DNA of 64,000 nucleotides from Fervidobacterium gondwanense DSM 13020 (GTDB lineage Bacteria; Thermotogota; Thermotogae; Thermotogales; Fervidobacteriaceae), in assembly GCF_900143265.1 (NCBI RefSeq), contig NZ_FRDJ01000001.1, positions 248,001-312,000 on the forward strand, in the 5' to 3' direction. Both the position numbers and the translations under genes were made by a program. The notes beneath the pieces are model-generated. The model did no database searches. It saw only the letters and a list, made by a program, of their open reading frames with translations, and had not been told where the DNA came from. Shown piece after piece: positions 44,925 through 62,283 of the stretch (position 1 is the stretch's first letter; each line of letters begins with the position of its first letter).

Positions 44925-44977
44925 TAATTTGAAACGTGAAAACTTATTTTATATTGCTTCTTCAAGAGGTGAAACAG

Positions 44978-46369
44978 ATGCCAATATTATCAATGTTCAC
45001 AGACACAACTTTCAGGGATGGACACCAGTCGCTTATAGCCACAAGAATGCGAACAGAAGATATACTCGGAATAATTGAAGAAGTTGATAGTCTCGGTTTT
45101 CAAGCGCTCGAAGTTTGGGGCGGAGCAACTTTCGATGTTTGTGTCAGGTTTTTAAACGAAGACCCTTGGGAAAGATTGAGGCTTATAAAGAAAAAGCTAA
45201 AAAACGGCAAAGCCCAAATGCTACTGCGTGGGCAGAACTTGGTTGGATACAGGCACTACGCTGATGATGTTGTCGAATTGTTTGTAAAAAAAGCGGTAGA
45301 GAATGGCGTTCAGGTAATGAGGATTTTTGATGCTCTCAACGATATTAGGAATTTGGAAAAGAGCATTGAGGTTGCCTTAAAATGTGGGGCACACGTCCAG
45401 GGTGCGATATCTTACACCGTAAGTCCATTTCACACAGTAGAGTACTTCGTAAATTATGCAGAGCAGTTGGTTGAACGTGGAGTCCATTCACTCTGTATAA
45501 AAGACATGGCTGGGCTGCTAACACCAAAAGTAGCGGGCGAACTTGTTAGCGCCCTGAAAAAGAGATTCGATTTGCCTTTGGAAGTACATTCACATGCCAC
45601 TGCTGGTCTTGGAGAACTCGCCTACCTCGCGGCTATACAAGCGGGTGCGGATATCATAGACACTGCGTTTTCACCATTCGGAATGACGACAAGCCAACCT
45701 GCATTTGAGCCGATATATTATTCTTGGAATGAATACAGACCACTTCCTGAGATAGATTGGCACAAAGTGGACAGAATCGTAAAGTATCTAACAGATGTTC
45801 GAAATAAATATGATGCGTACGATGTAAAGATGTACAGCATTGATCACAGAGTGATTACTTCACAAGTTCCGGGTGGTATGTACTCTAACTTAGTTAAGCA
45901 ACTGTCTGAACAGAAGATGTTAAACAAATTGGATGATGTATTAAGAGAAATTCCGCGCGTGCGTGCAGACCTTGGTTATCCGCCACTTGTAACGCCAACG
46001 AGCCAAATTGTGGGAGTTCAAGCTGTGCTCAATGTAATAACAGGTGAAAGATACGCTAAGGTCACCAGGGAAGTAAAGGATTACGTGAAAGGACTTTACG
46101 GAAAACCACCAGCGAAGATCGATGAAGATCTTGCAAAGAAAATACTCGGCGATGAAAAACCGATTGAAGGACGCCCAGCTGATTATATAGAACCAGAACT
46201 TGAAAAGAGGAAAGGTGAAATTGGGCTACTTGCAGAGAATGATGAAGAGCTTTTGATATACGCTATACTGGGCGAAGTCGGAAAGCAATATCTGAAGAAA
46301 AAATACGAAGAAAAATTATACATCGACTGGAACTTGGTTGAGAAGTTTGAAGGGGGTTACCCTGTTTGA
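44978..46369 (+). CDS. Biotin-dependent carboxyltransferase subunit (OadA/PycB/5S type)
   Basis: 463 aa. Catalytic carboxyltransferase barrel starting FTDTTFRDGHQSL (metal Asp and substrate-binding residues), RGQNLVGYRHYADD, MRIFDALND, SLCIKDMAGLLTP with the carbamylated-Lys-type region, and VHSHATAGL (metal histidines). The PYC_OADA domain follows to the end. There is no C-terminal biotinyl domain and no MKM motif, so a separate biotin carrier is needed; none is in the window. It could be oxaloacetate decarboxylase alpha, pyruvate carboxylase subunit B or the 5S subunit of methylmalonyl-CoA transcarboxylase. The last is suggested by mutase downstream. ATG at 44978 is 6 bases after AGAGGTG. 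Confidence 0.85.
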   Translation: MPILSMFTDTTFRDGHQSLIATRMRTEDILGIIEEVDSLGFQALEVWGGATFDVCVRFLNEDPWERLRLIKKKLKNGKAQMLLRGQNLVGYRHYADDVVELFVKKAVENGVQVMRIFDALNDIRNLEKSIEVALKCGAHVQGAISYTVSPFHTVEYFVNYAEQLVERGVHSLCIKDMAGLLTPKVAGELVSALKKRFDLPLEVHSHATAGLGELAYLAAIQAGADIIDTAFSPFGMTTSQPAFEPIYYSWNEYRPLPEIDWHKVDRIVKYLTDVRNKYDAYDVKMYSIDHRVITSQVPGGMYSNLVKQLSEQKMLNKLDDVLREIPRVRADLGYPPLVTPTSQIVGVQAVLNVITGERYAKVTREVKDYVKGLYGKPPAKIDEDLAKKILGDEKPIEGRPADYIEPELEKRKGEIGLLAENDEELLIYAILGEVGKQYLKKKYEEKLYIDWNLVEKFEGGYPV

Positions 46370-47172
46370 TAGTCGGTCTTGGAAACGATATAGTGGACAT
46401 CTCGCGTGTTCAAGTTGACTTAGCAAAAAGAATTCTCACTCCGAGAGAGAAAGGGAACAAAAACAGAATTACTGAACAGTACGTTGCGGGTAGATTCGCA
46501 TTGAAAGAAAGCTACTTTAAAGCTCTCGGAACAGGTCTTAATGGAAATTCGTTTCAAGATATTTCTTTTCTCAACAGGAATGACGGGAGCCTCTATTGTG
46601 TGATTCATAGGTATAGACATGCAAAACACGGGGCATATAATTACATACACACAACGCTGTCTCACGATAAATTCGCAGTAGCCGAAATAATATTAGAAAA
46701 GGTCGAAGGAAAAGTTTTTGTAGGCATCGGGACAAATCTTGGAGACAGAAAGAAAAACATACAAGAAGCCATCGAAAGAATTGGAAAGGTAGCGAGCGTA
46801 ATCTCAACTTCCGATGTTATAGAAACCGAACCTTACGGTAAGACAGATCAACCGAATTTCCTAAATTGCGTAATAGAGATAAGCACTGCCCTATCACCGG
46901 AAGAGCTTTTAGATGCTCTGCTGAACATTGAGAAAGAGATGGGAAGAGTTAGAAATGAAAAATGGGGACCAAGAATTATAGATTTAGATATATTGTTTTA
47001 CGGTAATATAATTGTGGAAAGTGAAAAATTGAGAATTCCGCACTACGATTTTGAAAACAGGATTTTCTTCGTAAAACCGATGGCCCAGATCGCTCCTGAC
47101 TATATACATCCAATAAGCCTCAGGAAGGTTACGGAAATACTTGAAAGTCTTGAAAAATGGAATGTGGAGTGA
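46366..47172 (+). CDS. Fusion of holo-ACP synthase (AcpS) and HPPK (FolK)
   Basis: 268 aa in one frame. Residues 1-about 112 are AcpS: IVGLGNDIVDISRV with Asp8, RFALKESYFKALGTGL with Glu48, and a C-terminal SHDKFAVAEIIL. It would load phosphopantetheine from CoA onto acyl carrier protein. Residues from about 116 are 6-hydroxymethyl-7,8-dihydropterin pyrophosphokinase: VFVGIGTNLGDR, IETEPYGKTDQPNFLNCVIEI, EKEMGRVRNEKWGPRIIDLDILFYG (GPRIIDLD at 201-208) and IPHYDFENRIFFVKPMAQI. Both sets of key residues are present. The two reactions are in unrelated pathways. TTG start at 46366 overlapping the upstream stop as TTGA, 8 bases after GGGGGT. Confidence 0.92.
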   Translation: MIVGLGNDIVDISRVQVDLAKRILTPREKGNKNRITEQYVAGRFALKESYFKALGTGLNGNSFQDISFLNRNDGSLYCVIHRYRHAKHGAYNYIHTTLSHDKFAVAEIILEKVEGKVFVGIGTNLGDRKKNIQEAIERIGKVASVISTSDVIETEPYGKTDQPNFLNCVIEISTALSPEELLDALLNIEKEMGRVRNEKWGPRIIDLDILFYGNIIVESEKLRIPHYDFENRIFFVKPMAQIAPDYIHPISLRKVTEILESLEKWNVE

Positions 47173-47176
47173 TACT

Positions 47177-47476
47177 ATGGCAAACAGTGGAGAGAAGGAC
47201 ATATTGAATATCGAAGCTCAGATAGATGAAGCGATAGAGAAAGAAGACTACGAGAAACTGAATCAGTTACTCGATGAGAGAGAAAAGCTCCTTTCGAAGT
47301 TATCGAGCGAAGAGTTGATAGAGATATACAAGCGAGACGAGGAGCGGAAGAAAAAACTCGAGCAGAAACTCAATGAATTTAAAGAAATGGCGCTAAAGAC
47401 CATCGAGGGTGAAAAAATGATGAGATCCTATCTGACGGTTGAAGATAAGGGGAGCAGCATAGACAGGAAAGGTTGA
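47177..47476 (+). CDS. Small coiled-coil protein
   Basis: 99 aa, highly charged and almost wholly helical (Glu and Lys dominate). DEAIEKEDYEKLNQLLDEREKLLSKL and KRDEERKKKLEQKLNEFKEMAL form two amphipathic helices. It resembles FliT-type or other small helical chaperones in size and pattern, but there is no diagnostic motif. No signal, no membrane helix. ATG at 47177 after GGAGTGATACT; the stop of the AcpS-FolK gene is 4 bases upstream. Confidence 0.7.
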   Translation: MANSGEKDILNIEAQIDEAIEKEDYEKLNQLLDEREKLLSKLSSEELIEIYKRDEERKKKLEQKLNEFKEMALKTIEGEKMMRSYLTVEDKGSSIDRKG

Positions 47477-47519
47477 GTAAAGATTAAATTTTTTAAATCG
47501 AAGCGAAGGGGGAGTTGGA

Positions 47520-49184
47520 ATGAACGAAAGATTTGTAAAGGCAAAAGCAAAATACGAAGATGTTGTTGCAAAATCGGTAGCAAAGGTACCTGAAAGAAAA
47601 CCAACTTTTACTTCAACGTCCGGTTATGAAATCAAGAGGCTCTACACTCCAGAGGATATAGAACACATAGATTACGTGGAAGAAATCGGATTCCCCGGTG
47701 AATATCCTTACACACGCGGTGTTCAGCCAACAATGTACAGGGCAAGGCACTGGACGATGCGCCAGTATGCAGGCTTTGGAACTGCCGAAGAATCGAATAA
47801 GAGGTATAAGTACCTCCTCCAACAAGGACAGACAGGACTTTCGGTTGCATTCGATTTGCCAACTCAAATTGGATACGACTCAGATGACCCAATGGCTGAA
47901 GGTGAAGTTGGTAAAGTCGGCGTTGCAATAGACTCGCTTGAGGACATGGAGATACTGTTCGATGGTATTCCACTTGACCAAGTCAGTACTTCCATGACAA
48001 TAAATAGCACGGCGATGATTCTGCTCTCAATGTACATAGCCGTCGCGGAAAAACAAGGAGTATCGCAAGACAAACTGAGCGGTACGATACAGAACGATAT
48101 ACTCAAAGAATACATAGCAAGGGGAACATATATTTATCCACCTGAACCATCTATGAGGCTTATAACAAACATCTTTGAATACTGCTCGAAGTACATGCCG
48201 AAGTGGAATCCGATAAGCATAAGTGGGTATCATATAAGGGAAGCCGGTTCAAGCGCAGTACAAGAAGTTGCGTTCACACTTGCTGATGCTATAGCGTACG
48301 TAGACACAGCAATAAAGGCTGGGCTTGATCCAAACGTCTTTGGAAAAAGATTGTCTTTCTTCTTTGCAGCACATAACAACTTCCTTGAAGAGATAGCAAA
48401 ATTCCGTGCAGCGAGAAGACTATGGGCAAAGATAATGAAGAAAAGATTCGGTGTGACTGATCCAGAGGCATTGAAGTTGAGATTCCATACACAAACCGGC
48501 GGTTCTACACTCACAGCTCAACAACCACTTAACAATGTAATCCGCGTCACGATACAAGCACTCGCAGCCGTTTTGGGTGGCACTCAGTCGCTCCACACAA
48601 ACAGCTACGACGAAGCTCTCGGACTCCCAACGGAAGAATCCGCAAGAATCGCTTTAAGAACGCAACAAATAATCGCTTACGAATCGGGTGTTGCGGACAC
48701 GATCGACCCACTCGCCGGTTCTTACGTAATAGAAGCAATGACGAGCGAAATTGAAAAGAGAGCGATGGAGTATATCGAGAAGATAGATCAGATGGGTGGA
48801 ATGATAAAGGCAATTGAGACTGGATACGTACAGAAAGAGATCCACGAAAGCGCTTACAAGCACCAACTTGCAGTTGAAAAAGGTGAAGAGATAATAGTTG
48901 GTGTGAACAAATTCCAAATAAACGAAGACTTGAAACAAAAAGAAGTGCTCAAGGTAGATCCAGAGCTTGAAAGAAAGCAAAAAGAACGAGTTAAGAAGCT
49001 CAAAGAGAGAAGAGACAACGAAAAAGTGAAGAAGATTCTTAACAAGATAAAAGAAGTTGCGCAGACCGATGAAAATCTCTTCCCGTACGTTCTCGAAGCT
49101 GTTAAATCGTACGCAACCGTTGGTGAGATAAGCAACGCACTGAGGGAAGTATTTGGAGAATACACAGAGACTGTAATCATCTGA
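47520..49184 (+). CDS. Methylmalonyl-CoA mutase catalytic subunit, without B12 domain
   Basis: 554 aa. Adenosylcobalamin-dependent mutase barrel, converting methylmalonyl-CoA and succinyl-CoA. [28 protein letters not shown] holds Tyr83, the residue that is Tyr in methylmalonyl-CoA mutases, Phe in isobutyryl-CoA mutases and Ile in hydroxyisobutyryl-CoA mutases. Also seen: [29 protein letters not shown] with His238, and [20 protein letters not shown]. There is no C-terminal DxHxxG cobalamin-binding domain. A separate small subunit is required and is not in the window. ATG at 47520 after GAAGGGGGAGTTGGA. Confidence 0.92.
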
Positions 49185-50736: not shown

Positions 50737-51073
50737 TTGAAGAATACTAGATTGAACGCAATTTTGTTTTTAAAAACAATTTTGCTATAATACAGGTGGT
50801 TAGTCGCCCAAAATTTCAAGTGTTGTCTCACCATCCAGAAAAACGAATATGAACGATTTGGAGGATATTTTCGAAGATATCAATTAATTTAGATTATATT
50901 TGTCCAATTTTTCTATTTGACACATTTGTTGTGTCTGGTAGAATATTAAAGAAAAAATGGAGTATTTTTGTCTATTTTGGCACAAGAACAATAATGCAAG
51001 TCTTGCGATCTTGTTCATTTTTATATTCAATACTTTGTGAAAAAAATATCATCTATTAAAGGGAGGGATGTGC
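50737..51073 (+). other. Leader region of the Mbx-type operon
   Basis: About 335 bases with two promoter candidates and no gene. Distal: TTGTTT (50764-50769), 16 bases, TGc-TATAAT (50786-50791). Proximal: TTGACA (50917-50922), 16 bases, TAGAAT (50939-50944). Between them is a 12-codon frame (ATG at 50850, MNDLEDIFEDIN) of doubtful meaning. Downstream of the proximal start a weak hairpin GAACAA/TTGTTC (50986-51016) precedes ATTTTTAT. The ribosome-binding site AGGGAGGG ends the region. Confidence 0.5.
50917..50944 (+). promoter_or_regulatory. Proximal promoter of the Mbx-type operon
   Basis: TTGACA, 16-base spacer, TAGAAT. Predicted start near 50951, giving a leader of about 120 bases. Confidence 0.55.
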
Positions 51074-51553
51074 GTGAATTTTTCGGTACTCATTGTTACT
51101 TTTTTCACATGGTTGTTGTTAACGTGGTCCCTTGATGTTCAAGAGGTTATTGTTGGATTAGTGGTATCGTTTGCTATTTCCATTATTTTCAAACGCTACT
51201 ACAACATCAAGTTCAACGCCAAGTTCGTACCCGGACTTTTCAAGTTTTTCTTTGTTTACATACCGGTTTTCGTTTGGGAGATGCTGAAAGCAAATTTTGA
51301 CGTCGCTTCAAGAGTGTTGGACAGTAAAGTACGTGTTAAACCGGGGTTTGTTAGAGTTAAGACATCTTTGAAGGGTGATATTGCCAAATTGACGCTCGCC
51401 AATTCGATAACCCTAACACCAGGAACGATTGCTGTTGACATGAAAGATGACGAGCTTTACGTACACTGGATAGAAGTTGGAGGTACCGATGAGAACTCAA
51501 AACGCACGTTTTATGGTAGACTTGAAAGGTTCTTGAAGGGGGTGTACGAATGA
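51074..51553 (+). CDS. Mrp antiporter subunit E-like (MbxA-type)
   Basis: 159 aa. Two to three membrane helices in the first 70 residues (SVLIVTFFTWLLLTWSL; VIVGLVVSFAISIIF; LFKFFFVYIPVFVWEMLKANFDV). The MnhE signature VKPGFVRVKTSLKGDIAKLTLANSITLTPGTIAVD follows, with the C-terminal cytoplasmic domain. First subunit of the Na+/H+ antiporter-like half of the complex. GTG at 51074 is chosen: GGAGGG is 6 bases upstream, while the ATG at 51068 abuts that site. Overlaps the next gene as ATGA. Confidence 0.9.
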   Translation: MNFSVLIVTFFTWLLLTWSLDVQEVIVGLVVSFAISIIFKRYYNIKFNAKFVPGLFKFFFVYIPVFVWEMLKANFDVASRVLDSKVRVKPGFVRVKTSLKGDIAKLTLANSITLTPGTIAVDMKDDELYVHWIEVGGTDENSKRTFYGRLERFLKGVYE

Positions 51554-51843
51554 GTGGCTCTCTTTTAATCGATTTAATTGTCTTTGGATTCACTGGACTC
51601 GGTATTTTCTTAACGCTCATCAGGTTCTTGCTCGGTCCAACGAGTTTCGAAAGATTGGTCGCTGTGGATATGATGAACGTCATGTTCATAGGCGTTCTAG
51701 TTATGATTGCGTACATATTCAAGAACAATATGTACATGGATATTGCTTTGCTATACGGTTTACTCACTTTTATCGAGACTTTAGTCTTTGCTCGCTATCT
51801 TGAAAATCGGGCAGCAAAGACTGCGGACGGTGATAAGAGATGA
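51550..51843 (+). CDS. Mrp antiporter subunit F-like
   Basis: 97 aa with three membrane helices (about 6-24, 34-55, 60-82). The MnhF signature is RFLLGPTSFERLVAVDMMNVMFIGVLVMIAYIF, then DIALLYGLLTFIETLVFARYLE. Overlaps subunit E and subunit G genes by 4 bases each. Confidence 0.92.
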   Translation: MSGSLLIDLIVFGFTGLGIFLTLIRFLLGPTSFERLVAVDMMNVMFIGVLVMIAYIFKNNMYMDIALLYGLLTFIETLVFARYLENRAAKTADGDKR

Positions 51844-52214
51844 CTGAGATAATAAGAGAAATCGTAGGCTATACGCTCACCGCGCTTGGTGCGTTTTTCT
51901 ATTTCCTTGCAGGTTTAGGTTTGATTAGAATGCCGGATGTTTATACAAAGCTCCAAGCTTCAACAAAGGCAACGACTCTCGGAACCTTTTCTATCGCGCT
52001 TGGGATAGGTATTCTCAATCCAGAATTCTTCGGAAAGTCGATTATATTAATCGCCTTCGTAGCCCTAACAAACCCTGTTGCATCATCTGTAATGATTCGA
52101 GCAGCTTACAAAAACAACGCACCCGCATGCAAAGAGACTTGTATTGATGAAATAGCAGAACTAAAAAACAATGCGGTAGAAAAAGCTGTTACGGGTGGTG
52201 AGGGCAATGAGTAA
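51840..52214 (+). CDS. Mrp antiporter subunit G-like
   Basis: 124 aa with three membrane helices. MnhG signature FFYFLAGLGLIRMPDVYTKLQASTKATTLGTFSIALGI and VALTNPVASSVMIRAAYKNN. The C-terminal 30 residues are polar. Starts within the end of the F-like gene (ATGA) and overlaps the next start. Confidence 0.93.
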   Translation: MTEIIREIVGYTLTALGAFFYFLAGLGLIRMPDVYTKLQASTKATTLGTFSIALGIGILNPEFFGKSIILIAFVALTNPVASSVMIRAAYKNNAPACKETCIDEIAELKNNAVEKAVTGGEGNE

Positions 52215-52521
52215 TTTGAAAGAGTTTTTAACAAGTTTAGAGCTCATCGATTATGTATCTTATTTGGTCGGCGGATTGATGGTAGTCTTTGGAATCTTTG
52301 CCGTTGAAGCAAAAAAGATATTCGATTCATTGCTTGCACTTTCTGCTTTAAGCATGTTGTCAGTATTGATATTTGTCGTATTGAAAGCACCAGATGTAGC
52401 AATCACGGAAGCGGCAGTTGGTTCAGGACTTGCAAGTGCTGTGATGATTTTTGCACTATTTAGAATTAGCAATCCGGAAAATAAACGAGGCAATAAGAAC
52501 AAGGCAGGTGAGGAAGAATGA
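52207..52521 (+). CDS. MbhD-like membrane subunit (DUF4040)
   Basis: 104 aa. Three membrane helices; the conserved core IFAVEAKKIFDSLLALSALSMLSVLIFVVLKAPDVAITEAAVGSGLASAVMIFALF matches the MbhD/MnhA-C-terminal family with its APDVA(I/L)TEA motif. Polar Lys/Asn-rich tail. ATG at 52207 overlaps the G-like stop by 8 bases; GGTGAGGG lies upstream. Overlaps the next gene as ATGA. Confidence 0.9.
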   Translation: MSNLKEFLTSLELIDYVSYLVGGLMVVFGIFAVEAKKIFDSLLALSALSMLSVLIFVVLKAPDVAITEAAVGSGLASAVMIFALFRISNPENKRGNKNKAGEEE

Positions 52522-53237
52522 GGCGCATATGGGCAATCCTGCTTTCAGCTGTATTTTTATACTTCTTCTTCACAGTCTATGCTCCAACTCTTCCTGAGTT
52601 TGGCATGTTTGACATGTATAGGAGAGTTTCGTTTGATTATATAAGCAAATCAACGACAAAAGAGTACTCACCTGTGGAATTTAAGAAGTCATCCAACCTT
52701 GAAGAAGGCAGTGCAAATGTTGTCACTTCAATTGTTGTGAACTACCGTTCTTTCGACACGCTTGGAGAAGTCACTGTACTATTCACAGCAGCACTTGGTG
52801 TCGGTTTGCTCGCATCCTACAAGAAAAGAAGAATAGAGTTCGAAAACCACAACGTTCTTTCAACCGCAACAGGTATAGTGTTACCGATAATTTTACTCTT
52901 CGGGGCTTACATCTTTATACACGGGCACCTCACACCCGGTGGTGGATTTCCAGGCGGTACGATAATTGGGCTTGGAGTTCTGTTGTTAATTCTTGGAAGA
53001 ACGGACTTCAAAGTATCCGAAGTGGCTAAGTACACAGAAGGTGTAGCAGGTGCCGGGTACGTTCTCGTTGGATTGGTAGGAATAGCTTTGGCAGGAACGT
53101 TTTTGGCAAATTTCCTCCCAACAGGTACGGTAGGATACTTGTTCAGCGCAGGCGTTGTGCCGATAGTCTATACTCTGATAGGCTTCAAGGTTGGAGCAGA
53201 GCTTTCGAATATAATTTCAGAAATGAGGGAGGGATAA
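52518..53237 (+). CDS. Fused MbhE- and MbhF/MnhB-like subunit
   Basis: 239 aa. The N-terminal part (about 1-108) has one helix, a soluble loop and then SANVVTSIVVNYRSFDTLGEVTVLFTAALGVGLL, the MbhE signature. The C-terminal part (about 112-239) is MnhB/MbhF: LSTATGIVLPIILLFGAYIFIHGHLTPGGGFPGGTIIGLGVLLLIL. In Pyrococcus Mbh these are two genes; in mrp operons MrpB stands alone. Five or six helices in total. Overlaps the gene before it as ATGA. Confidence 0.88.
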   Translation: MRRIWAILLSAVFLYFFFTVYAPTLPEFGMFDMYRRVSFDYISKSTTKEYSPVEFKKSSNLEEGSANVVTSIVVNYRSFDTLGEVTVLFTAALGVGLLASYKKRRIEFENHNVLSTATGIVLPIILLFGAYIFIHGHLTPGGGFPGGTIIGLGVLLLILGRTDFKVSEVAKYTEGVAGAGYVLVGLVGIALAGTFLANFLPTGTVGYLFSAGVVPIVYTLIGFKVGAELSNIISEMREG

Positions 53238-53240
53238 GAT

Positions 53241-53585
53241 ATGCTTTACTACATCTCGTTTGTCCTCTTTGGCATAGGTCTTTATGGAATCATCTCCCAA
53301 AAGAACCTTTTTAAACAGCTTGTATCTTTGACAATAATTGATACCGCTGTCAATATTTTCATTGTCTCGCTCGGCTATCTCAAAGGTGCGGAGGCTCCTA
53401 TCTACTCTGTGATAACTCCTGTCGCAAATTTCGTTGATCCTCTCCCGCAAGCGCTCGTCCTTACAGCAATAGTTATCGGCGTTGGAACTTTAGCTCTTGG
53501 TGCAATGCTTTTAGTACACATCAACGAAGAATACGGCTCTGTTGACCCAGATGAAATTCGCGCAGCAAAGGAAGTGATAGAATGA
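53241..53585 (+). CDS. NuoK/MnhC-like membrane subunit
   Basis: 114 aa, three membrane helices. MnhC/NuoK pattern: IGLYGIISQKNLFKQLVSLTIIDTAVNIFIVSLGYL, then PLPQALVLTAIVIGVGTLALGAMLLV with the conserved DPLPQALVLTAIVI motif. Ends DEIRAAKEVIE. ATG after GGAGGGATAAG; overlaps the first antiporter-like gene as ATGA. Confidence 0.94.
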   Translation: MLYYISFVLFGIGLYGIISQKNLFKQLVSLTIIDTAVNIFIVSLGYLKGAEAPIYSVITPVANFVDPLPQALVLTAIVIGVGTLALGAMLLVHINEEYGSVDPDEIRAAKEVIE

Positions 53586-54958
53586 TTACTTTGCTAATTG
53601 CTGTCCCTCTTGCCCTCGCTTTTGCTACGGTAGCCTTTCCAAAGGCAAGCAAGTACATCTTACCAATCGCCCTTATATTTAATCTAGTTTTGCTTTTCGG
53701 ATTCTTGAAGCCAGGCACGTTGGTTCAAGTTGGTAATTGGCCCGCTGCTTATGGTATAGCACTTTTGCTTGATAATGTGAATTATCCATTCCTTTTATTC
53801 GTGAATATCCTTTTGCTTGCAATATCACTCACCGCAGATTTTAAAGAAAAGCATGGGATTTTGCTCCTTGTGCTTACAGCATCGTTAAATGGGCTGTTGC
53901 TCACAGGTGATTTCTTTAACTCATTTGTGTTCCTTGAAATCATATCCGCAATAGCTTACATACTTGCAGCTGAAAAGAAAAACTCTTATGCAGCGTTCAA
54001 GTACCTCATTTTCGGTGCTGTTGCAGGAACCCTTTATTTGATAGGTGCAGTAACAGTGTACGTCTATGCAGGTACTTTGAATATGGGATATGCAAGTTTC
54101 ATCGTTGCACCACAGTATATGGAAATTGCCGGCATTTTCATGCTCTTGGCTCTATTGATAGAGTTGAAAGTCCTTCCTCTTGGACTTTGGGCACCCGATG
54201 TGTATTCAAATGGTTCTTCTCTAACACCTGTTGTGCTCGGAACGGCTGTCACCGCTTCGATTTTCTACCTTTTCGCGAGGATTTTCTTTACAATAACACT
54301 TCCTGTCAGATTTGAATTGGTCTTCATCCTTTCAACGATTTCAATCATCGTAGCTCAGTTGGCTGCCTTAAAACAGAAAAATCTTGGAAGAGCACTTGCT
54401 TACATGGCAATAGCTGGTGCAAGCACGGTAGTGGCAGCACTGTCTGCCGCAGTTCATGGAGAGGATACACTACTTTCAGCTGCTTTCTTTTATCTCTTTG
54501 CCGATGTTGTATCAGTATTCGTGCTCTTCTCAATTTTCGCTTACTTGTCACACAAGGGCTTTAAAGGAAACACCACAGTAGGTTTGGCATTTACAATCGC
54601 TTCACTTTCGATAATAGGATTACCTCTCACAGCTGGATTCTGGGCGAAAATCAACCTACTTCAATCACTCTTTGAGATGAATAATTTAATTCTTCCTGCT
54701 GTATTATTAATTTCAACAGTCATAGAGGCTGGTTATCTCATCAAGTGGAACGTTGAGCTGTGGTACAAAGACCAAGAAGAACAAGAAGATGAAAGCTACA
54801 TACCATTTGGTACGCAGCTTGTTGTGCTACTCTTAGCTCTTGTACTTATCATCGTAGGTTTCATGCCACAGCTAATCACAGACAAGACTCACAGCATAGC
54901 TACGTCGTTAACAGATTTCAGAACCTACTTCGATACTCTCCTGAAAGGAGGTATGTGA
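53582..54958 (+). CDS. Antiporter-like subunit (MrpD/NuoL-N type), first copy
   Basis: 458 aa, about 13-14 membrane helices. It matches the proton- or ion-translocating subunits MrpA/MrpD/NuoL/M/N: LLTGDFFNSFVFLEIISAIAYILAAEKKNSYAAFKYLIFGAVAGTLYLIGA contains the TM5 glutamate and the following conserved helix. LLIELKVLPLGLWAPDVYSNGSSLTPVVLG contains the TM7 lysine and substrate loop. TAGFWAKINLLQSLF is the late discontinuous helix. Corresponds to MbxH. Start ATG overlaps the previous stop; the end overlaps the second copy's ribosome-binding site. Confidence 0.93.
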   Translation: MITLLIAVPLALAFATVAFPKASKYILPIALIFNLVLLFGFLKPGTLVQVGNWPAAYGIALLLDNVNYPFLLFVNILLLAISLTADFKEKHGILLLVLTASLNGLLLTGDFFNSFVFLEIISAIAYILAAEKKNSYAAFKYLIFGAVAGTLYLIGAVTVYVYAGTLNMGYASFIVAPQYMEIAGIFMLLALLIELKVLPLGLWAPDVYSNGSSLTPVVLGTAVTASIFYLFARIFFTITLPVRFELVFILSTISIIVAQLAALKQKNLGRALAYMAIAGASTVVAALSAAVHGEDTLLSAAFFYLFADVVSVFVLFSIFAYLSHKGFKGNTTVGLAFTIASLSIIGLPLTAGFWAKINLLQSLFEMNNLILPAVLLISTVIEAGYLIKWNVELWYKDQEEQEDESYIPFGTQLVVLLLALVLIIVGFMPQLITDKTHSIATSLTDFRTYFDTLLKGGM

Positions 54959-54960
54959 CA

Positions 54961-56775
54961 ATGCAAAATCTGATACTATACTTGGCTGTCGGAGCACTCG
55001 GAAGTTACTTACTTTCCAAAATAGCTAAGCAGATAGGGCCTGTTATATTGTTCGCTCTCTCGATATTCGCTTTGTACATCCTTTGGGGTATGCCAACAGG
55101 AACGGTTGAAGGACTATTTGGCCTTGAAGGTATGTTGAAATACACCGCTTTGGCAAAATACTTCTCAATAGTGTCGCTTATAGTATTTGCATCTTTCGGT
55201 TTCTTCAATATCTCGTGGATCAGCAAGACAAAAAATCCGAGTGCATTTAACGCTCTTTCGATACTCACATTACTTGGCACACTCGGTGTTTTCTTCTCTT
55301 CTAATTTACTCGCATTATACATATTCTGGGAAATCGCCGTTCTTGGTTCGTTGTTCATAGTGCCGATGGGAAAAGAGGAATCTCGTAAGGCAACTATATG
55401 GTATATCGTGATAAGCTCGATAGGTACATACATGTTCCTTTACGGAGTGTTCATGCTGTATGCAAAATATTCAACTTTTGACATATTTGAAATCGCTCAG
55501 TACTTGCCAAACGAATCACTTGGATTCAGATGGACAGTAGTACTTCTGATGCTTGGTGCTGGTATTGCAAAGAGCGGTATATTCCCGCTCCATACATGGC
55601 TGAGGAACGTGCACGGAAACGCACCCGATACGTTCAGTGCAGTACTTTCCGGTCAGCTTGTGAAGATGGGGTCTTACTTGCTCGCTCTGGTTTTAAGCGT
55701 ATTTCCAATCGCTAATATGTTCTCTGAATTTTACAATGGGATAAATATTCTCTCTTACTTGTTGGTCTGGCTTGGTAATATATCGATCCTCATAGGAACG
55801 CTTATGGCCATAAAGCAGAACGATATGAAGATGCTCATAGCGTACTCGACAGTGGCAAACGGTGGTTACATACTTATAGGTCTTGCCACGCTCCATCAAG
55901 TCGGATACGCAGGTGGACTCTTCCACGTTGTAAACCACGCCCTTGCCGCAACTATGATATTCCTTTCATTTGCGGCGGTTACATATAGAACAGGTACAAC
56001 CAAGATCGACGAACTCGGTGGATTAATCCACAGGATGCCGGTCACGTTCGTTACATATTTGGTGGGAATCATCTCGCTTGCAGGTATTCCACCAACAAGC
56101 GGATTCATATCAAAATGGATGATATTCCAAAGCTTAGTGTCAAAGGGTATGTTCGTAACAGAACTTTTCGTATTCGTTGGTAGCATCGGTTCGTTCTTGT
56201 ACGTTTTTAGGCCTCTTGCAGGCGTATTCCTCGGGCAATTGAAGAGTAAACACAAAGATGTTAAAGAAGTGCCAGTAATTATGCAAATTCCTATGATCAT
56301 CCTCACAGCTTTAACCGTGCTCTGGGGTATATTCCCGCAACAAGTTTTGACATGGATAACCGATGTACAGAAGGAATTTGGCATGAAGCCTTTTGAATTC
56401 GAAGGCACGGTCTTAAAGACAAGTTTGGGATACTGGGACACATGGGTAGTCTTCGTGATGTTTGCAGTCGGTTTCATAATCGCAGCAATAATCTACATAC
56501 TCATGCCAAAAGGCAAGAGGATACCGCTTGAAGATCAGTATACATCTGGTGAGTTCTTGCACAACTATGATCTGTACCATTATGCTGGTAAATTCTATGC
56601 CTTCCTCGAAAGAGAATACGAAGGTCATCCTTCATTCGAAGATTGGTACCTGTCTATAGTTAACGTGCTTAAGGCTATCGGAAAAGGTGTCGACTATCTT
56701 GCAAGACGCACAGCCTCGGCGTACCTTTTCTGGACTGCTTTGGTTGTTCTGTTGATAATGTGGTGGAGGTGGTAA
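54961..56775 (+). CDS. Antiporter-like subunit (MrpD/NuoL type), second copy
   Basis: 604 aa, about 14 helices plus a long C-terminal extension. SSNLLALYIFWEIAVLGSLFIV holds the TM5 glutamate; GAGIAKSGIFPLHTWLRNVHGNAPDTFSAVLSG is the TM7-8 signature; FHVVNHALAATMIFLSFAAVTY and SLAGIPPTSGFISKWMIF follow. The last 110 residues hold a cytoplasmic loop and a final helix (YLFWTALVVLLIMWWRW). Two such subunits side by side mark Mbx/Mbs-type complexes, not the single MbhH of Mbh. ATG at 54961 lies 8 bases after AGGAGGT; the GTG at 54955 is too close to it. Confidence 0.93.
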   Translation: MQNLILYLAVGALGSYLLSKIAKQIGPVILFALSIFALYILWGMPTGTVEGLFGLEGMLKYTALAKYFSIVSLIVFASFGFFNISWISKTKNPSAFNALSILTLLGTLGVFFSSNLLALYIFWEIAVLGSLFIVPMGKEESRKATIWYIVISSIGTYMFLYGVFMLYAKYSTFDIFEIAQYLPNESLGFRWTVVLLMLGAGIAKSGIFPLHTWLRNVHGNAPDTFSAVLSGQLVKMGSYLLALVLSVFPIANMFSEFYNGINILSYLLVWLGNISILIGTLMAIKQNDMKMLIAYSTVANGGYILIGLATLHQVGYAGGLFHVVNHALAATMIFLSFAAVTYRTGTTKIDELGGLIHRMPVTFVTYLVGIISLAGIPPTSGFISKWMIFQSLVSKGMFVTELFVFVGSIGSFLYVFRPLAGVFLGQLKSKHKDVKEVPVIMQIPMIILTALTVLWGIFPQQVLTWITDVQKEFGMKPFEFEGTVLKTSLGYWDTWVVFVMFAVGFIIAAIIYILMPKGKRIPLEDQYTSGEFLHNYDLYHYAGKFYAFLEREYEGHPSFEDWYLSIVNVLKAIGKGVDYLARRTASAYLFWTALVVLLIMWWRW

Positions 56776-56778
56776 GAC

Positions 56779-57666
56779 ATGGCTATGACGATAGCAAGAG
56801 TTGCAGGAGTATTGTTTACAGCCTTCTTCTTTGGCCTGACATTTGAGGGGCTTGGAAGAAAAATTACAGCGCGTATACAAAGAAGATACGGACCACCTTG
56901 GTATCAGAACTTTATAGACGTCTTCAAAACTTTGACAAAGCACGGATGGACTCATGGCTGGATATTTGACTTCGGCGTGCTTATGGCTCTCGGTGGAGTC
57001 ATTGCAACGCTCTCATTTGTTCCACTTGGAAACTTAGTTGCGTTCCCTGGATTGGATAATTTCTTCGTCATAGCTTACTTATTCACAGTCGGTGCACTCG
57101 GTATGGCGATGGGAATGGTTGGTACTGGCAACCCGTGGGCGTCCATAGGTGTGGCAAGAGCGCTAACACTCATGCTCGGTTACGAAGTGCCATATCTTAT
57201 AGTTATCACAACACTTATGTACTTCTACAAAACTGGAAACATATCAAACATCGTAGCAGCTCAGAATGGTACATGGAATCTCTTCAAATTCCCGATAGGT
57301 GCACTTGTGGCGTTCATATCGCTCCAAGGTATGCTCGGCAAAGAACCGTTCGAAGCACCGATAGCACCAGCTGAAATCGCATCCGGTCCTATGGTTGAGC
57401 TCTCAGCAAAATACATGGGATTGCTGATGCTCATGAATACATTCATGGAATTCGTCGAGATAAGCTTGTTCGTAGACTTCTTCCTTGGCGGCGGAAATTA
57501 CATAGAATTCTTGCTCAAATATTTCGTAGTCTGGGCTCTTGCAGTAATGATTTCAACGGTGCTCCCAAGATTTAGGATAGAACAAGCCGTTGCGTTTTAC
57601 TGGACTGTACCAATCCTGCTTGCATTCTTGCAGGTTTTCTTAGTAGTCAATGGCTGGGTGTTTTGA
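56779..57666 (+). CDS. NuoH/MbhM-like membrane anchor subunit
   Basis: 295 aa, eight membrane helices. Signature of complex I subunit H: TFEGLGRKITARIQRRYGPPWYQNFIDVFKTLTK near the N-terminus (the quinone-site RIQRRxGP region), and EPFEAPIAPAEIASGPMVELSAKYMGLLML (the EAEQE-like acidic loop, here PFEAPIAPAEIASGP). It connects the membrane arm to the peripheral NuoB/D-like module. ATG at 56779, three bases after the previous stop, with GTGGAGGTGG upstream. Confidence 0.94.
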   Translation: MAMTIARVAGVLFTAFFFGLTFEGLGRKITARIQRRYGPPWYQNFIDVFKTLTKHGWTHGWIFDFGVLMALGGVIATLSFVPLGNLVAFPGLDNFFVIAYLFTVGALGMAMGMVGTGNPWASIGVARALTLMLGYEVPYLIVITTLMYFYKTGNISNIVAAQNGTWNLFKFPIGALVAFISLQGMLGKEPFEAPIAPAEIASGPMVELSAKYMGLLMLMNTFMEFVEISLFVDFFLGGGNYIEFLLKYFVVWALAVMISTVLPRFRIEQAVAFYWTVPILLAFLQVFLVVNGWVF

Positions 57667-57701
57667 TAATTACTGAGTAGATGTGTGCGGAGGTGAAATT
57701 G

Positions 57702-58247
57702 ATGGCTCAGATAGATGAAAGAAGCGTGTGGGAAAAGATAGCAGACCAACTCAGAAGCAGATCCATGTGGATGCTCCATTATTGTACTGGTTGTGGTGCT
57801 GTAGAGTTGCCACCTTCCATGACCTCAAGGTTCGACATGGAAAGACTTGGCATGGGACCTATGGCAACGCCAAGACAAGCGGATATATTCTTGATAACAG
57901 GATATCTCAGCGCAAAAACACTTAGAAGGGTAATTTACACATACGAAAAGATGGCAGATCCAAAGTACGTAATCGGATTTGGCTCGTGTACTATCAACGG
58001 CGGTATATATTATGATTCTTATTCAACGATAAACAGGTTAGACTACTACCTTCCTGTCGATTTGTACATCGCAGGTTGTATGCCAAGACCGGAAGCCATT
58101 TTGAACGCATTTAACACACTTATGGAAATGATTAGAAAAGGCGAAGCGAACGGCTGGAAGAAGTACAAGGAAAATTACGAGTGGTACAAACAGAATCAAC
58201 TGCGCAGTCTCGGTGAGGTGATCGTCCATGACCAATTCCACGAATAA
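57702..58247 (+). CDS. NuoB/MbhJ-like [4Fe-4S] subunit
   Basis: 181 aa. Holds the proximal cluster nearest the catalytic site. Four cysteines match the NuoB/hydrogenase small subunit pattern: C28 and C31 (YCTGCGAVE), C96 (GFGSCTI) and C126 (AGCMPRPEA). The conserved GMGPMATPRQADIFLITG strand is present. The spacing CxxC differs from the adjacent CC of NuoB, as in hydrogenase-type small subunits. ATG at 57702 is 6 bases after GGAGGTG, with the seven upstream codons ignored. Overlaps the NuoC-like gene by 20 bases. Confidence 0.95.
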   Translation: MAQIDERSVWEKIADQLRSRSMWMLHYCTGCGAVELPPSMTSRFDMERLGMGPMATPRQADIFLITGYLSAKTLRRVIYTYEKMADPKYVIGFGSCTINGGIYYDSYSTINRLDYYLPVDLYIAGCMPRPEAILNAFNTLMEMIRKGEANGWKKYKENYEWYKQNQLRSLGEVIVHDQFHE

Positions 58248-58788
58248 TGTGGCTAATGTTTCTGAAGTAATCGAAAAAGCAAAGAGTCTTTTCAATATCG
58301 AAGTAGAGCAGATAGATGCAAAGCAGTACAAATTTGTAGCAGCAAACGACAAAACGATACCTCTTTTGGCTCACTTAAAGGAAGCAGGATATTCGCATCT
58401 ATCAATACTAACTTGCGTTGACTGGATAGAAGAAAAGAAATTCGAGCTTGTGTATATTTTATTCAACTGGTCGAATGGGGTAACTTTCCTCGTCTCAACG
58501 TTCGTTGATAGGGACAAGCCGATATTCTACACAGTCAAAGATATGTGGCCTGTAGCTGAGTACTATGAACGAGACGTGCACGAGTTCTTCGGTGTTGAGT
58601 TCGAAGGAAATGAAAGGTGCAAGTTGCCGATGATTTTAGAAGTCTGGAACGATTTACCACCTCTCAGAAAAGACTTTGACCCTCTGAAATATTCAAAAGA
58701 TCACTATCCAGACAGGATGTACGAAAAAGACGTTATTCACGAAGCAAAGATAATAAGGGAAGATATAAGAGGTGATATAAATGGGTGA
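58228..58788 (+). CDS. NuoC/MbhK-like subunit
   Basis: 186 aa. About 80 N-terminal residues are variable; the core YSHLSILTCVDWIEEKKFELVYILFNW and the 30-kDa subunit signature VKDMWPVAEYYERDVHEFFGVEFEGNERCKLPMILEVWNDLPPLRKDFDP are clear. It packs against NuoD. ATG at 58228 with GGTGATCGTCC upstream; its end overlaps the NuoD-like start by 8 bases. Confidence 0.94.
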   Translation: MTNSTNNVANVSEVIEKAKSLFNIEVEQIDAKQYKFVAANDKTIPLLAHLKEAGYSHLSILTCVDWIEEKKFELVYILFNWSNGVTFLVSTFVDRDKPIFYTVKDMWPVAEYYERDVHEFFGVEFEGNERCKLPMILEVWNDLPPLRKDFDPLKYSKDHYPDRMYEKDVIHEAKIIREDIRGDING

Positions 58789-59884
58789 AGTAAAACTGTT
58801 TTTTGGTCCAAATCACCCTGGTATGCACGGTAATTTCAGCGTGCATATGTACGTTGAAGGTGACATCGTTGTAAAGGCAAGACCGCTTCCAGGATTTTTG
58901 CACAGAGGTTTTGAAAAACTCATGGAAAGAAGGCTTTGGTATCAGAACCTTGCACTTATTCCAAGGATATGCGTTCCAGAACCAGACATCAACGAAGCAT
59001 GTTATGCTATGGCTATAGAGAAGATAGCAAAAGTAGAAGTACCAGAAAGGGCTCAATGGATAAGGATGTTGGTGCTTGAACTTGCAAGGATAGCAAACCA
59101 TCTGTGGTCATTCGGTGGTATCGGTGGACCAACTGGCATGTACACGAGCATGTTCTGGTCAGTGAGCGATAGAGATAAAGTCCTCGATATATTTGAGGAA
59201 CTTTCTGGCGCAAGGATTTACCACATGTATATAATCCCTGGCGGTGTGAGAAAAGACCTCCCACCGAGACTTGAAGAGAAGATACATCAATTGATGGATT
59301 ATCTCGAAGAAAGAATGCCGGAATATGAGACGTTTATACTAAAGAACAGAATACTCCACACACGTCTAAGAGGAATAGCCAAAATTGATACGGAAACGTG
59401 TTTGAAGCTCGGTGTTACCGGTATCGGACTGCGCGCAACCGGTGTGCCGTATGATATACGAAAAATCGACCCGTACCTGTTCTACGACAAAGTGGAATTC
59501 GAAGTGCCAACGGCAACTGAAGGAGATGCGTTGGCAAGAATCAGCCTGAAACCAAAAGAAATTAGGCAGAGTATAAGAATTATCAGGCAAGTGCTTGAGA
59601 AAATGCCATCAGGACCTGTGAATACGAAGATATCTGATGGTAGTGGTTTGAGAATAAGAGTTCCAAAAGGCATGGCATACGCAAGGGTCGAATCAACACG
59701 CGGTGAATACGGCTACTTGGTTGTTTCAAATGGCGGAGAAACGCCTTACCGCGTAGCTGTTAGGGGAGCATCTTATCCTCAAGGACTGTACGGTGTTGAG
59801 CACCTATTGCCCGGTACGCGAATAGATGACGTTCCAATCTGGCTTGACACTATGGGTGTTTGCGCACCTGAAATCGATCGATAA
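58781..59884 (+). CDS. NuoD/MbxL-like catalytic subunit lacking two Ni ligands
   Basis: 367 aa, homologous to NuoD and the large subunit of group 4 [NiFe] hydrogenases. FFGPNHPGMHGNFSVHMYVEGD and GFLHRGFEKLMERR are typical. The N-terminal Ni site RxCxxC reads R-I-C64-V-P-E67, and the C-terminal DPCxxC reads D-T-M358-G-V-C361. One cysteine of each pair is kept and the other lost. That is the state reported for Mbx/Mbs of Pyrococcus and argues against hydrogenase activity. It also lacks a cleavable C-terminal peptide: only six residues follow C361. ATG at 58781 after GAGGTGATATAA. Confidence 0.94.
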   Translation: MGEVKLFFGPNHPGMHGNFSVHMYVEGDIVVKARPLPGFLHRGFEKLMERRLWYQNLALIPRICVPEPDINEACYAMAIEKIAKVEVPERAQWIRMLVLELARIANHLWSFGGIGGPTGMYTSMFWSVSDRDKVLDIFEELSGARIYHMYIIPGGVRKDLPPRLEEKIHQLMDYLEERMPEYETFILKNRILHTRLRGIAKIDTETCLKLGVTGIGLRATGVPYDIRKIDPYLFYDKVEFEVPTATEGDALARISLKPKEIRQSIRIIRQVLEKMPSGPVNTKISDGSGLRIRVPKGMAYARVESTRGEYGYLVVSNGGETPYRVAVRGASYPQGLYGVEHLLPGTRIDDVPIWLDTMGVCAPEIDR

Positions 59885-59900
59885 TCGGGAGGTGCTGATG

Positions 59901-61766
59901 ATGGAAATCAAAGATAAAGGACCTCAGAAGAGCTTCTTCGCTCCACTGCTTGGTTGGAAGAACCTGTTTGAAAAGCCAGTTACAATTAAAGTGCCAAAGG
60001 TGTATAGAGAAGCAGCACCAAGGTACAGGGGTTTTCACATAAATGACTGGGAGAAATGTATCGGTTGTGGCACTTGTGCGAAGATATGTCCAACGGATGC
60101 AATAACGATGGTCGAAGTACCAGATATGAAAGAAGAATACGGAATGAAACCTCAGAGGCCATCTATAGACTATGGAAGATGTAGCTTCTGTGCGATGTGT
60201 GTCGATATATGTACAACTGGCTCGTTGCAGATGACAAGAGAATATATCTTCGTCTCTCCAAATCCAGAGGATTTCTATTATGCACCAACCGAGAAGGGTA
60301 TATTGAAGAAAGAGCCTGAGGAAATAAAGGTTGGCTGGACAAGGGACGAGGATAGCGAATTGCTTGATCTTGACAGGATCGTTCCAGAGCATATGCCAGC
60401 TGAAGAGAGATCTAACTCCTTTGTCGAATTTGTTAAGGCATACAGTAAAGAACAAGCAATCGCCGAGGCTGCAAGATGTGTCGAGTGTGCGATATGTGTG
60501 GACAGATGTCCCGAACACATGCAGATACCACAATACATTAAGGCCATCTGGAAAGACGATTTGCAGGATGCACTGAAATGGCTCCTCAAAGGCGTTGAAG
60601 ACCAGAAGAACTTTGGTGCAAACCCGTTCTCAGGAGTATGTGGAAGAGTTTGTACGCACAGATGTGAGGAAGTATGTTCTATCGGACACAGAGGTGAAGC
60701 AATAGCAATAAGGTGGCTGAAAAGGTACATAACAGACAACGTTCCTGCAGAAAAATGGCACGAGATTGTCAAATTTGATTCACCAAAGCAGAACAAGAAG
60801 GTAGCGATCGTTGGTAGCGGTCCTGCCGGCCTTTCGGCTGCGTACTTCCTATCATCGATGGGTTATGAGGTTGATGTTTACGAAGCGATGAACAGGCCAG
60901 GCGGCGTGATGAGATACGGAATACCAAGATACAGATTACCAGATGAAGCGCTCGATAAAGATATCGCATTTATAGAATCACTGGGTGTAAGAATACTGAC
61001 AGGTGTAGCTGTTGGAAAGGACATAACATTTGAAGAGCTCAAAAACAGATACGATGCGATATTTATATCGACTGGTTTGACGCTTGGCAGATCGACAAAA
61101 ATTCCAGGTTCCGACCATCCAAATGTCGTCCAAGCTCTGCCTCTTTTAAGAGAAATAAGGGACTATTTGAGAGGCGAAGGATCCGAGCCAAAGATAGCCA
61201 AGCGTGTTGTGGTCATTGGTGGTGGTAATGTCGCGATGGACATTGCAAGGAGTATGGCAAGACTCCAGAAGATGAAATTTGGAGAAGTTCATGTCACGGT
61301 CACGTGTCTTGAGAGAACACACGAAGAAATGCCAGCCGATATGGAAGAAATAGAAGAAGCAATTGAAGAAGGTGTCAAAATCTGCCCAGGCTGGGGTCCA
61401 AGAAAGGTTATCTTCGATGACAAAGACAACATCAAAGGAATTGAATGTGTGAAGTGTACAGAAGTGTTTGACGAGAACAAAAGGTTTAACCCGAAATTCG
61501 ACGAATCCCAATTGCAATACTACGATGGCGACATGATAATCGAAGCGATCGGTCAGGCACCAGATTATTCGTACTTGCCAGAAGAATGGAAGCAGAAGAT
61601 ACAGTTCGTCGGTCCAAGAATTTTGACAAACAATTTAAGACAAACTGCTATTCCATGGCTATTCGCAGGTGGTGACATCGTAAACGGTCCTGATATAATC
61701 CACGGTGTTGCTGACGGATACTGGGCTGCACGCGGTATTGACCAGTACCTAAGAGAACAAAAATAA
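59901..61766 (+). CDS. NuoI-like ferredoxin module fused to GltD/NfnB-type flavoprotein
   Basis: 621 aa. Residues 1-about 150 are a NuoI/MbxN-like subunit with two [4Fe-4S] motifs: C53-C56-C59-C63 (CIGCGTCAKICP) and C94-C97-C100-C104. From about 175 a GltD/NfnB-type unit begins: C193-C196-C199-C203, a second cysteine set CGRVCTHRCEEVC, the FAD fold VGSGPAGLSAAYF (Gly305 region), GRSTKIPG, and the NAD(P) fold IGGGNVAMDIARSM (Gly440 region), ending GDIVNGPDIIHGVADGYWAARGI. Thus the membrane complex carries its own pyridine nucleotide site. ATG 59901, 6 bases after GGAGGTG; ATG 59898 is possible. Confidence 0.93.
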   Translation: MEIKDKGPQKSFFAPLLGWKNLFEKPVTIKVPKVYREAAPRYRGFHINDWEKCIGCGTCAKICPTDAITMVEVPDMKEEYGMKPQRPSIDYGRCSFCAMCVDICTTGSLQMTREYIFVSPNPEDFYYAPTEKGILKKEPEEIKVGWTRDEDSELLDLDRIVPEHMPAEERSNSFVEFVKAYSKEQAIAEAARCVECAICVDRCPEHMQIPQYIKAIWKDDLQDALKWLLKGVEDQKNFGANPFSGVCGRVCTHRCEEVCSIGHRGEAIAIRWLKRYITDNVPAEKWHEIVKFDSPKQNKKVAIVGSGPAGLSAAYFLSSMGYEVDVYEAMNRPGGVMRYGIPRYRLPDEALDKDIAFIESLGVRILTGVAVGKDITFEELKNRYDAIFISTGLTLGRSTKIPGSDHPNVVQALPLLREIRDYLRGEGSEPKIAKRVVVIGGGNVAMDIARSMARLQKMKFGEVHVTVTCLERTHEEMPADMEEIEEAIEEGVKICPGWGPRKVIFDDKDNIKGIECVKCTEVFDENKRFNPKFDESQLQYYDGDMIIEAIGQAPDYSYLPEEWKQKIQFVGPRILTNNLRQTAIPWLFAGGDIVNGPDIIHGVADGYWAARGIDQYLREQK

Positions 61767-61797: not shown

Positions 61798-62283
61798 ATG
61801 TACGACATATTGAAACTCGCAGAGCAGTTTGAAATAGAGGGCTATAAATTCTACACCGCAAAAAAAGAAGAAGTGAAAAGCAAACATGTCTCAGACATCT
61901 TTGACTACCTTGCGCAGATGGAAAAAGAGCATACGGAATTCATAAGAAGACTTGTAAAGACACTTGAAGAAGGCAGGGAAGTCGAGGCAATCGAGATGCA
62001 AGACTCAAGCTATTTCAAATCAAGATACGAAGGTCAAAAGATTCAAGAAACATCACAAGAAGACGATATTGCAGATTTGGCTGTTCTCAGGATGGCTTAC
62101 CTTATAGAAAAAGATTTCATGGAATTCTATAAGAAAGCTGCTGATAATGAGAAAAATGAAAGTGTCAGGAAGGTGTTGGTGCTCTTGCAAGATTGGGAAG
62201 AAGGTCATAAGAGAATTATAGAAGAGCAGATGAAGGCGATAATTGAAAGGAACAATCTTGAATTGGGATTTTATCCATTTTAG
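61798..62283 (+). CDS. Ferritin-like (erythrin-type) diiron protein
   Basis: 161 aa, four-helix bundle. Diiron ligands fit two ExxH-type repeats: Glu in FEIEGYKFY (about 13), EKEHTEF (about 41-47), EKDFMEFY (about 105-112) and EEGHKRI (about 138-144). It resembles the erythrin domain of rubrerythrin but has no rubredoxin cysteines. Likely role: peroxide reduction or iron handling. It lies 31 bases after the flavoprotein fusion, with AAAGGGGGGG before its ATG, and is the last gene of the operon, which would link it to protection of the Fe-S complex. Confidence 0.85.
   Translation: MYDILKLAEQFEIEGYKFYTAKKEEVKSKHVSDIFDYLAQMEKEHTEFIRRLVKTLEEGREVEAIEMQDSSYFKSRYEGQKIQETSQEDDIADLAVLRMAYLIEKDFMEFYKKAADNEKNESVRKVLVLLQDWEEGHKRIIEEQMKAIIERNNLELGFYPF

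Follow-up and report, generated by a model that had tools for sequence, protein, structure and literature searches.

A nickel-free Mbx/MBS-family complex with a fused, predicted NAD(H)-type flavoprotein in Fervidobacterium gondwanense

The large subunit MbxL, encoded in the window (the 64,000-nucleotide stretch of the Fervidobacterium gondwanense DSM 13020 genome that was analysed), is by its sequence a core subunit of the Mbx/MBS family, a nickel-free relative of the membrane hydrogenases. The family, the gene order, the motif identities and the lack of nickel machinery were observed directly. For the Thermotogota-type Mbx as a whole we favor, at slightly better than even confidence, a role as an ion-pumping NAD(H)/ferredoxin:sulfane-sulfur oxidoreductase, complex-I-like and nickel-free, with an NAD(H) module of its own. 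Mbx is one of the major candidates for conserving energy in Thermotogota, and this reading shifts the emphasis away from the two leftover nickel-site cysteines of MbxL, toward MbxJ and the flavoprotein fusion.

The Mbx operon (51068-61766) is of the Mrp type and complete, and a ferritin/rubrerythrin-like gene stands next to it. The genes are as follows.

51068..51553 (+), MrpE-like subunit (Pfam PF01899, 6.5e-41)
51550..51843 (+), MrpF-like subunit (Pfam PF04066)
51840..52214 (+), MrpG-like subunit (Pfam PF03334)
52195..52521 (+), MbxD, MbhD-like (Pfam PF13244, 1.5e-16)
52518..53237 (+), MbhE-like and MnhB-like domains in a single protein (Pfam PF20501 and PF04039)
53241..53585 (+), MbxG, MnhC/NuoK-like (Pfam PF00420)
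53582..54958 (+), MbxH, antiporter-like (Pfam PF00361; alignment with 6u8y_H)
54955..56775 (+), MbxH', antiporter-like (NCBIfam PRK08668; alignment with 6u8y_X)
56779..57666 (+), MbxM, NuoH-like membrane anchor (Pfam PF00146, 9.2e-56)
57681..58247 (+), MbxJ, proximal [4Fe-4S] subunit with a short MBS-type CTGC motif (alignment with 6u8y_J)
58228..58788 (+), MbxK, NuoC-like (Pfam PF00329)
58781..59884 (+), MbxL, ATG start, 367 aa, NuoD family; C64 and C361 kept, E67 and E364 in the other two nickel-ligand places
59898..61766 (+), MbxN fused to an NfnB/GltD-type flavoprotein (Pfam, PDB, AlphaFold, Foldseek and residue survey)
61798..62283 (+), ferritin/rubrerythrin-like protein (Pfam PF02915, 3.6e-14), found after Mbx in many lineages

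Many Thermotogota have the ferritin/rubrerythrin-like gene 3' of the Mbx operon, as do the gammaproteobacterial loci L081, L108, L113, L125 and L133. Gene neighbours in gammaproteobacteria and Halanaerobium were uninformative as to the electron acceptor, the ferritin-like gene alone recurring. Upstream in the window, carboxyltransferase-like and methylmalonyl-CoA-mutase-like proteins were recognized by eye at 44936-49184, close to the PdxS/PdxT-like genes and Mbx that follow them, and the mutase-PdxS gene order is preserved in the same-genus locus L057. A single ORF at 46366-47172, likewise read by eye, combines an AcpS-like (holo-ACP synthase) N-terminus with a FolK-like (HPPK) C-terminus.

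To locate the nickel-site residues, MbxL was aligned with two true [NiFe] Mbh-type (group 4) large subunits from other Thermotogota genomes (L052 and L055; motifs RICGIC and VDPCYCC). C64 fell on the first cysteine of motif 1 (RxCxxC) and C361 on the first cysteine (DPC) of motif 2; the lost partners are therefore positions 67 and 364, both glutamate. The initial annotation had reported one cysteine kept from each CxxC pair, C64 and C361, with E67 in place of a lost one and exactly half of the ligands remaining, and in all of this it was correct, the count being two of four. However, M358, which it had named as the second lost ligand, lies three residues upstream of motif 2 at no ligand position, and the real lost position is E364. 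MbxL ends at R367; L052 and L055 continue for about 40 residues, an extension that we take to be of the kind cleaved after nickel insertion.

C64 was found in 125 of 126 Mbx loci, and so was C361; this set is redundant, some genomes being present twice, and holds 113 distinct sequences. Residue 67 was acidic (Glu or Asp) in all 126 loci and residue 364 in 123. With such conservation across the aligned loci, the half-ligand pattern is not a product of chance. Both cysteines align with C85 and C385 of Pyrococcus furiosus MbsL (numbering checked), the two that remain there of the four nickel-ligand cysteines (PMC7684303), so the likeness to MBS drawn at the outset agrees with the published subunit. 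Since the half-set is published for MBS and is common to 125 of 126 loci, the window holds an ordinary Fervidobacterium Mbx. MbxL is 89% identical to its counterpart in Fervidobacterium sp. UBA5837, and identity reaches 96% in other genomes of the genus.

The family assignment, also made in the initial annotation, was borne out by both homology and phylogeny. Over its full length the best solved homologue of MbxL was 6u8y_L of MBS (E=4e-109), against 4e-74 for complex I and 8e-40 for MBH. In the tree all Mbx rows, MbxL included, grouped with MBS in one clade of 52 rows (support 100/99), which is separate from both NuoD and [NiFe] Mbh. A few of the tree's long branches come together, but its Mbx/NuoD/Mbh split is consistent with the pairwise scores. 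A half set of nickel cysteines, the short J-subunit motif and an Mrp-type module with two antiporter-like subunits and MbxM go together with this placement. MbxL is the only PF00346 protein of the genome (99% complete, 2.15 Mb). In the same genome HypD gave no match, although the control profiles did, and no NiFeSe large subunit was found over the cut-off. The complex is therefore no hydrogenase, as had been proposed. Four [FeFe]-hydrogenase domains were detected instead, and RnfC is present. The two glutamates and the lack of a C-terminal maturation extension set MbxL apart from group 4 [NiFe] enzymes. Of the quinone-site pair of complex I, the equivalent of His38 is retained in MbxL as H16 and is lost in MBS, while the Tyr87 position is V65, a substitution found in 126 of 126 Mbx loci.

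The weight that the initial annotation had laid on the half-set of cysteines was not supported. In P. furiosus MBS, catalysis has been assigned to the three-Cys proximal cluster of MbsJ, and mutants of MbsJ C25 and of MbsL C85 and C385 retained polysulfide activity (PMC7684303). A natural triple mutant was found on a deep Thermotogota MAG contig (L038; G002:C276, 2031-4180), in which C64, C361 and the equivalent of MbxJ C35 are all lost, the MbxL motifs reading RINVMD and IAAPEVD, and the three MbxJ cluster ligands and the fused flavoprotein are intact. Because the MbsL mutants are active and L038 does without both cysteines, the half-set is probably not the clue to catalysis. C64 and C361 are probably a family mark that is dispensable for catalysis.

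MbxJ aligned with MbsJ (6u8y_J) over 164 aa without a gap, with all four cysteines matched: C35 corresponds to MbsJ C25, and C38, C103 and C133 correspond to the cluster ligands C28, C93 and C123. Where the two can be matched, MbxJ has three residues fewer than MbhJ, and the shortened J-subunit motif is the feature that opens the proximal cluster of MBS (PMC7684303). From this alignment we infer a three-Cys coordination of the MbxJ cluster. Polysulfide, one of the acceptors left open in the initial annotation, is thus plausible for the bacterial complex by extension from MbxJ.

The other acceptor considered at the outset was NAD(P), reached through the fused flavoprotein. Residues 1-140 of the fused protein represent MbxN with two ferredoxin-type [4Fe-4S] motifs (C54-C105), and the remainder consists of a Fer4_20 double-cluster domain (C194-C260) and FAD and NAD(H) domains, with K275, R346 and L471-E472 as the residues of interest. 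The predicted fold of the flavoprotein is that of NfnB/GltD (AlphaFold2, mean pLDDT 90.3, pTM 0.85), and the first-ranked Foldseek match was 5jca_L (NfnB), with 37% identity and a TM score, normalised to the target, of 0.89. In NfnB two conserved arginines bind the extra phosphate of NADP (PMC6405883). Residues of the nucleotide site were sorted by motif classification. We assumed that the arginine pair of NfnB lies at the YRR motif, a placement made from knowledge of the Rossmann fold and of FprA/adrenodoxin reductase. In the fused flavoprotein of the window this place is occupied by L471-E472. Of the 113 fused copies that could be read at this site, 104 have the acidic Leu-Glu form and eight (Mesoaciditoga-type and WOR-3-type loci) have YRR; the two NfnB copies of the genome itself keep YRR. 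Enzymes that use NAD(H) are usually recognizable by an acidic residue at the place of the NADP-phosphate arginines.

The glutamate ligand of the cluster beside FAD in NfnB was located by homology, at 'LERF'. It is present in all NfnB and is replaced by lysine, Lys275 in the window, in 116 of 116 fused copies, while the arginine that contacts N5 (R346) is invariant. Lys275 aligns with Lys residue 170 of 9bov_A, the residue having been read in 9bov_A and not in the 8oh5_C row. In StnC, Lys170 coordinates the cluster beside FAD, and this FAD was assigned as non-bifurcating and feeds a [4Fe-4S] chain (PMC10482914). The window protein therefore carries the lysine fourth ligand of StnC and lacks both the phosphate-binding arginine pair and the glutamate ligand of NfnB. 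Judged by these residues, the flavoprotein of the fusion appears to be of the NAD(H) type and not to bifurcate, so that 'NAD(P)' narrows to NAD(H): the link to a nicotinamide nucleotide stands, and the NADP(H) part does not. Moreover, the NAD(H) site is more likely a donor or entry site than a terminal acceptor linked to the pump.

MbxN is fused to the flavoprotein in each of the 15 Thermotogota loci whose flank was long enough to show it, and most of the other bacterial loci have the fusion too. MbxN is unfused in Thermoanaerobacter, Caloramator, Clostridium tepidiprofundi and one DHVE2 archaeon. In the Mesoaciditoga-type loci L074 (11106-14200), L077, L082 and L129, a second, separate NfnB-like gene lies downstream of the fused gene; the fused copies of L077, L082 and L129 carry the NADP-type YRR, and the fused gene of L074 appears truncated.

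Of the 98 Thermotogota genomes searched, 59 to 70 have Mbx, depending on whether a deeper group at 49-54% is included; no Mbx was found in the 10 genomes of a family (f2, which may be Pseudothermotoga) that belongs to the order of Fervidobacterium. The same fused design is present in Firmicutes, Spirochaetota and chemosynthetic gammaproteobacterial symbionts. The two [NiFe] subunits used as alignment references (L052, 9911-11128; L055, 3875-5095; family f8) are genuine four-Cys Mbh-type proteins accompanied by Mrp modules, and the genome that holds L052 (G019) has Mbx too. Three further group-4-like large subunits of Thermotogota are not Mbx: L053 (9145-10200) and L056 (256-1317) have no nickel-site cysteine and L054 (9123-10121) has one; we presume that they may belong to Ehr-type complexes.

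The antiporter-like subunits were compared with their MBS counterparts. In MbxH' all five pump residues listed for MbsH' (6u8y_X) are intact: E126, K206, K237, H324 and K387. In MbxH the central lysine (MbsH K250 in 6u8y_H) is replaced by alanine and H330 by tyrosine. Thermotogota, Firmicutes and Spirochaetota lack this lysine; gammaproteobacteria, P. furiosus MBS and the loci L098 and L115 have it. Loss of the Lys and His residues could mean fewer ions pumped per electron pair and hence a reaction of lower energy. A link between lysine loss and the flavin fusion was considered and found no support, the unfused L134, L136 and L137 also lacking the lysine and the fused L115 having it. Lysine loss does not follow the fusion, so no firm conclusion on pumping stoichiometry was drawn.

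The cofactor use, NAD(H) preference, electron path, acceptor and pumping that we infer for the NAD(H)/ferredoxin:sulfane-sulfur oxidoreductase would combine as follows. Electrons from NADH would enter through the fused FAD and pass to two [4Fe-4S] clusters, and/or reduced ferredoxin would deliver them at MbxN; from the MbxN [4Fe-4S] clusters they would run in a linear chain to the proximal cluster of MbxJ. Since this cluster would be held by three cysteines only, its open iron could bind and split sulfane sulfur (polysulfide), as has been shown at the open proximal cluster of P. furiosus MBS (PMC7684303). Sulfur reduction would power the MbxM/MbxH' pump and the Mrp-type Na+/H+ module, and C64 and C361 of MbxL would be a conserved remnant beside the MbxJ cluster, not the catalytic site. 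In favor of sulfane sulfur, mbxA of Thermotoga maritima was up-regulated 4.36-fold with S0; however, T. maritima membrane fractions produced no H2S with reduced ferredoxin (assayed at 40 C) or NAD(P)H (PMC9431562). The step from NADH to polysulfide yields little driving force, H16 is kept in MbxL though its equivalent is lost in MBS, and the unfused Thermoanaerobacter/Caloramator group indicates that the Mbx family can do without the flavin module; all three points count against this scheme.

The main rival is an ion-pumping ferredoxin:NAD(P)+ oxidoreductase, in which ferredoxin would enter at MbxN, NAD(P)+ would be reduced at the fused FAD and the MbxJ/L chamber would relay only a conformational change. 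The nucleotide-binding flavoprotein, fused in almost every bacterial Mbx locus found, would suit such a route, Mbx has been termed a ferredoxin:NADP oxidoreductase (PMC4596419), and the absence of sulfur reduction by T. maritima membranes would be accounted for. Nevertheless, this would put both redox sites into the hydrophilic arm: the chamber linked to the pump would have no electron acceptor and the MBS-type three-ligand cluster no role. The nucleotide site, besides, is not NADP-type. With RnfC in the genome, Rnf probably serves ferredoxin:NAD+ and the route would be duplicated. We regard this reading as unlikely, though a serious contender.

Reverse electron transfer driven by sulfide or polysulfide, with the ion gradient spent on making NADH from reduced sulfur, is improbable for the complex in general and would be likeliest in sulfur-oxidising gammaproteobacteria with the fused form. 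Records of Thiodiazotropha, Chromatiaceae, Sedimenticola and Parasulfuritortus do contain a fused NAD(H)-type Mbx, and the putative Mrp-Mbx of the Riftia symbiont (Endoriftia) shares neighbours with rTCA genes, the direction being left open in that paper (PMC11636981). Fervidobacterium, however, is a fermenter that must dispose of electrons, so the reverse direction is unlikely in this organism. Electron bifurcation, in which the fused flavin would split NAD(P)H electrons between ferredoxin and the MbxJ site, is very improbable: the NfnB fold and the invariant R346 would allow it, but it is disfavoured by the invariant Lys275, found as in StnC where NfnB has glutamate, and the StnC FAD was assigned as non-bifurcating despite the same N5-contacting arginine (PMC10482914). 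A [NiFe] hydrogenase or a quinone reductase can hardly be credited, since remote homology to both families and the match of H16 to His38 are outweighed by the two missing nickel ligands, the missing C-terminal extension and HypD, the valine at the Tyr87 site and the MBS-type proximal-cluster motif.

Earlier papers have described both the half-ligand subunit and bacterial MBS-type complexes, those of Thermotogota among them (PMC7684303, PMC9431562, PMC10356935). Of more interest is the NAD(H) prediction for the fused flavin subunit; in the open-access papers searched, no discussion was found of its nucleotide site, of the lysine ligand or of the triple cysteine loss. The prediction of an NAD(H) site, a non-bifurcating flavin and an open proximal cluster is testable and contradicts the older 'ferredoxin:NADP oxidoreductase' label.

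Among known systems, P. furiosus MBS (PDB 6u8y; PMC7684303) resembles the window's complex in its Mrp-type membrane arm, the proximal-cluster motif of MbsJ, C85/C385 and the full-length match to MbxL, whereas MbsN has no flavoprotein fusion, the His38 equivalent is lost and MbsH keeps the K250 that MbxH has lost. The MBX of T. maritima, of the same phylum and family, has been reported as a 13-subunit MBS homologue (PMC9431562). NfnB (NfnL) of NfnAB (PDB 5jca, 4ylf) shares the flavoprotein fold, FAD, two [4Fe-4S] sites and the N5-contacting arginine, but the window copy has Leu-Glu for the NADP-phosphate arginine pair, and lysine for the cluster glutamate, and its operon encodes no NfnA partner. 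In the Sporomusa Stn transhydrogenase (PDB 8oh5; PMC10482914), StnC has the same lysine as fourth ligand beside an FAD that feeds a [4Fe-4S] chain; however, StnC works with NADPH and passes electrons to a bifurcating FMN in StnB, whereas the chain of the window would lead to MbxJ. Complex I (NuoD/Nqo4) is alike in overall arm architecture and in the NuoD fold, and differs in having no nickel-site cysteines and a tandem cysteine on its proximal cluster; its NuoEFG module has a GltD/NfnB-type module in its place in the Mbx of the window. It is possible, although we would not expect it, that Mbx with the fused flavin module represents a second NADH-linked complex I, put together independently of the first, in which a GltD/StnC-type arm on an MBS pump replaces NuoEFG to give a reversible NAD(H):polysulfide ion pump, running toward sulfide in Thermotogota and in reverse, from sulfide to NADH, in sulfur-oxidising symbionts.
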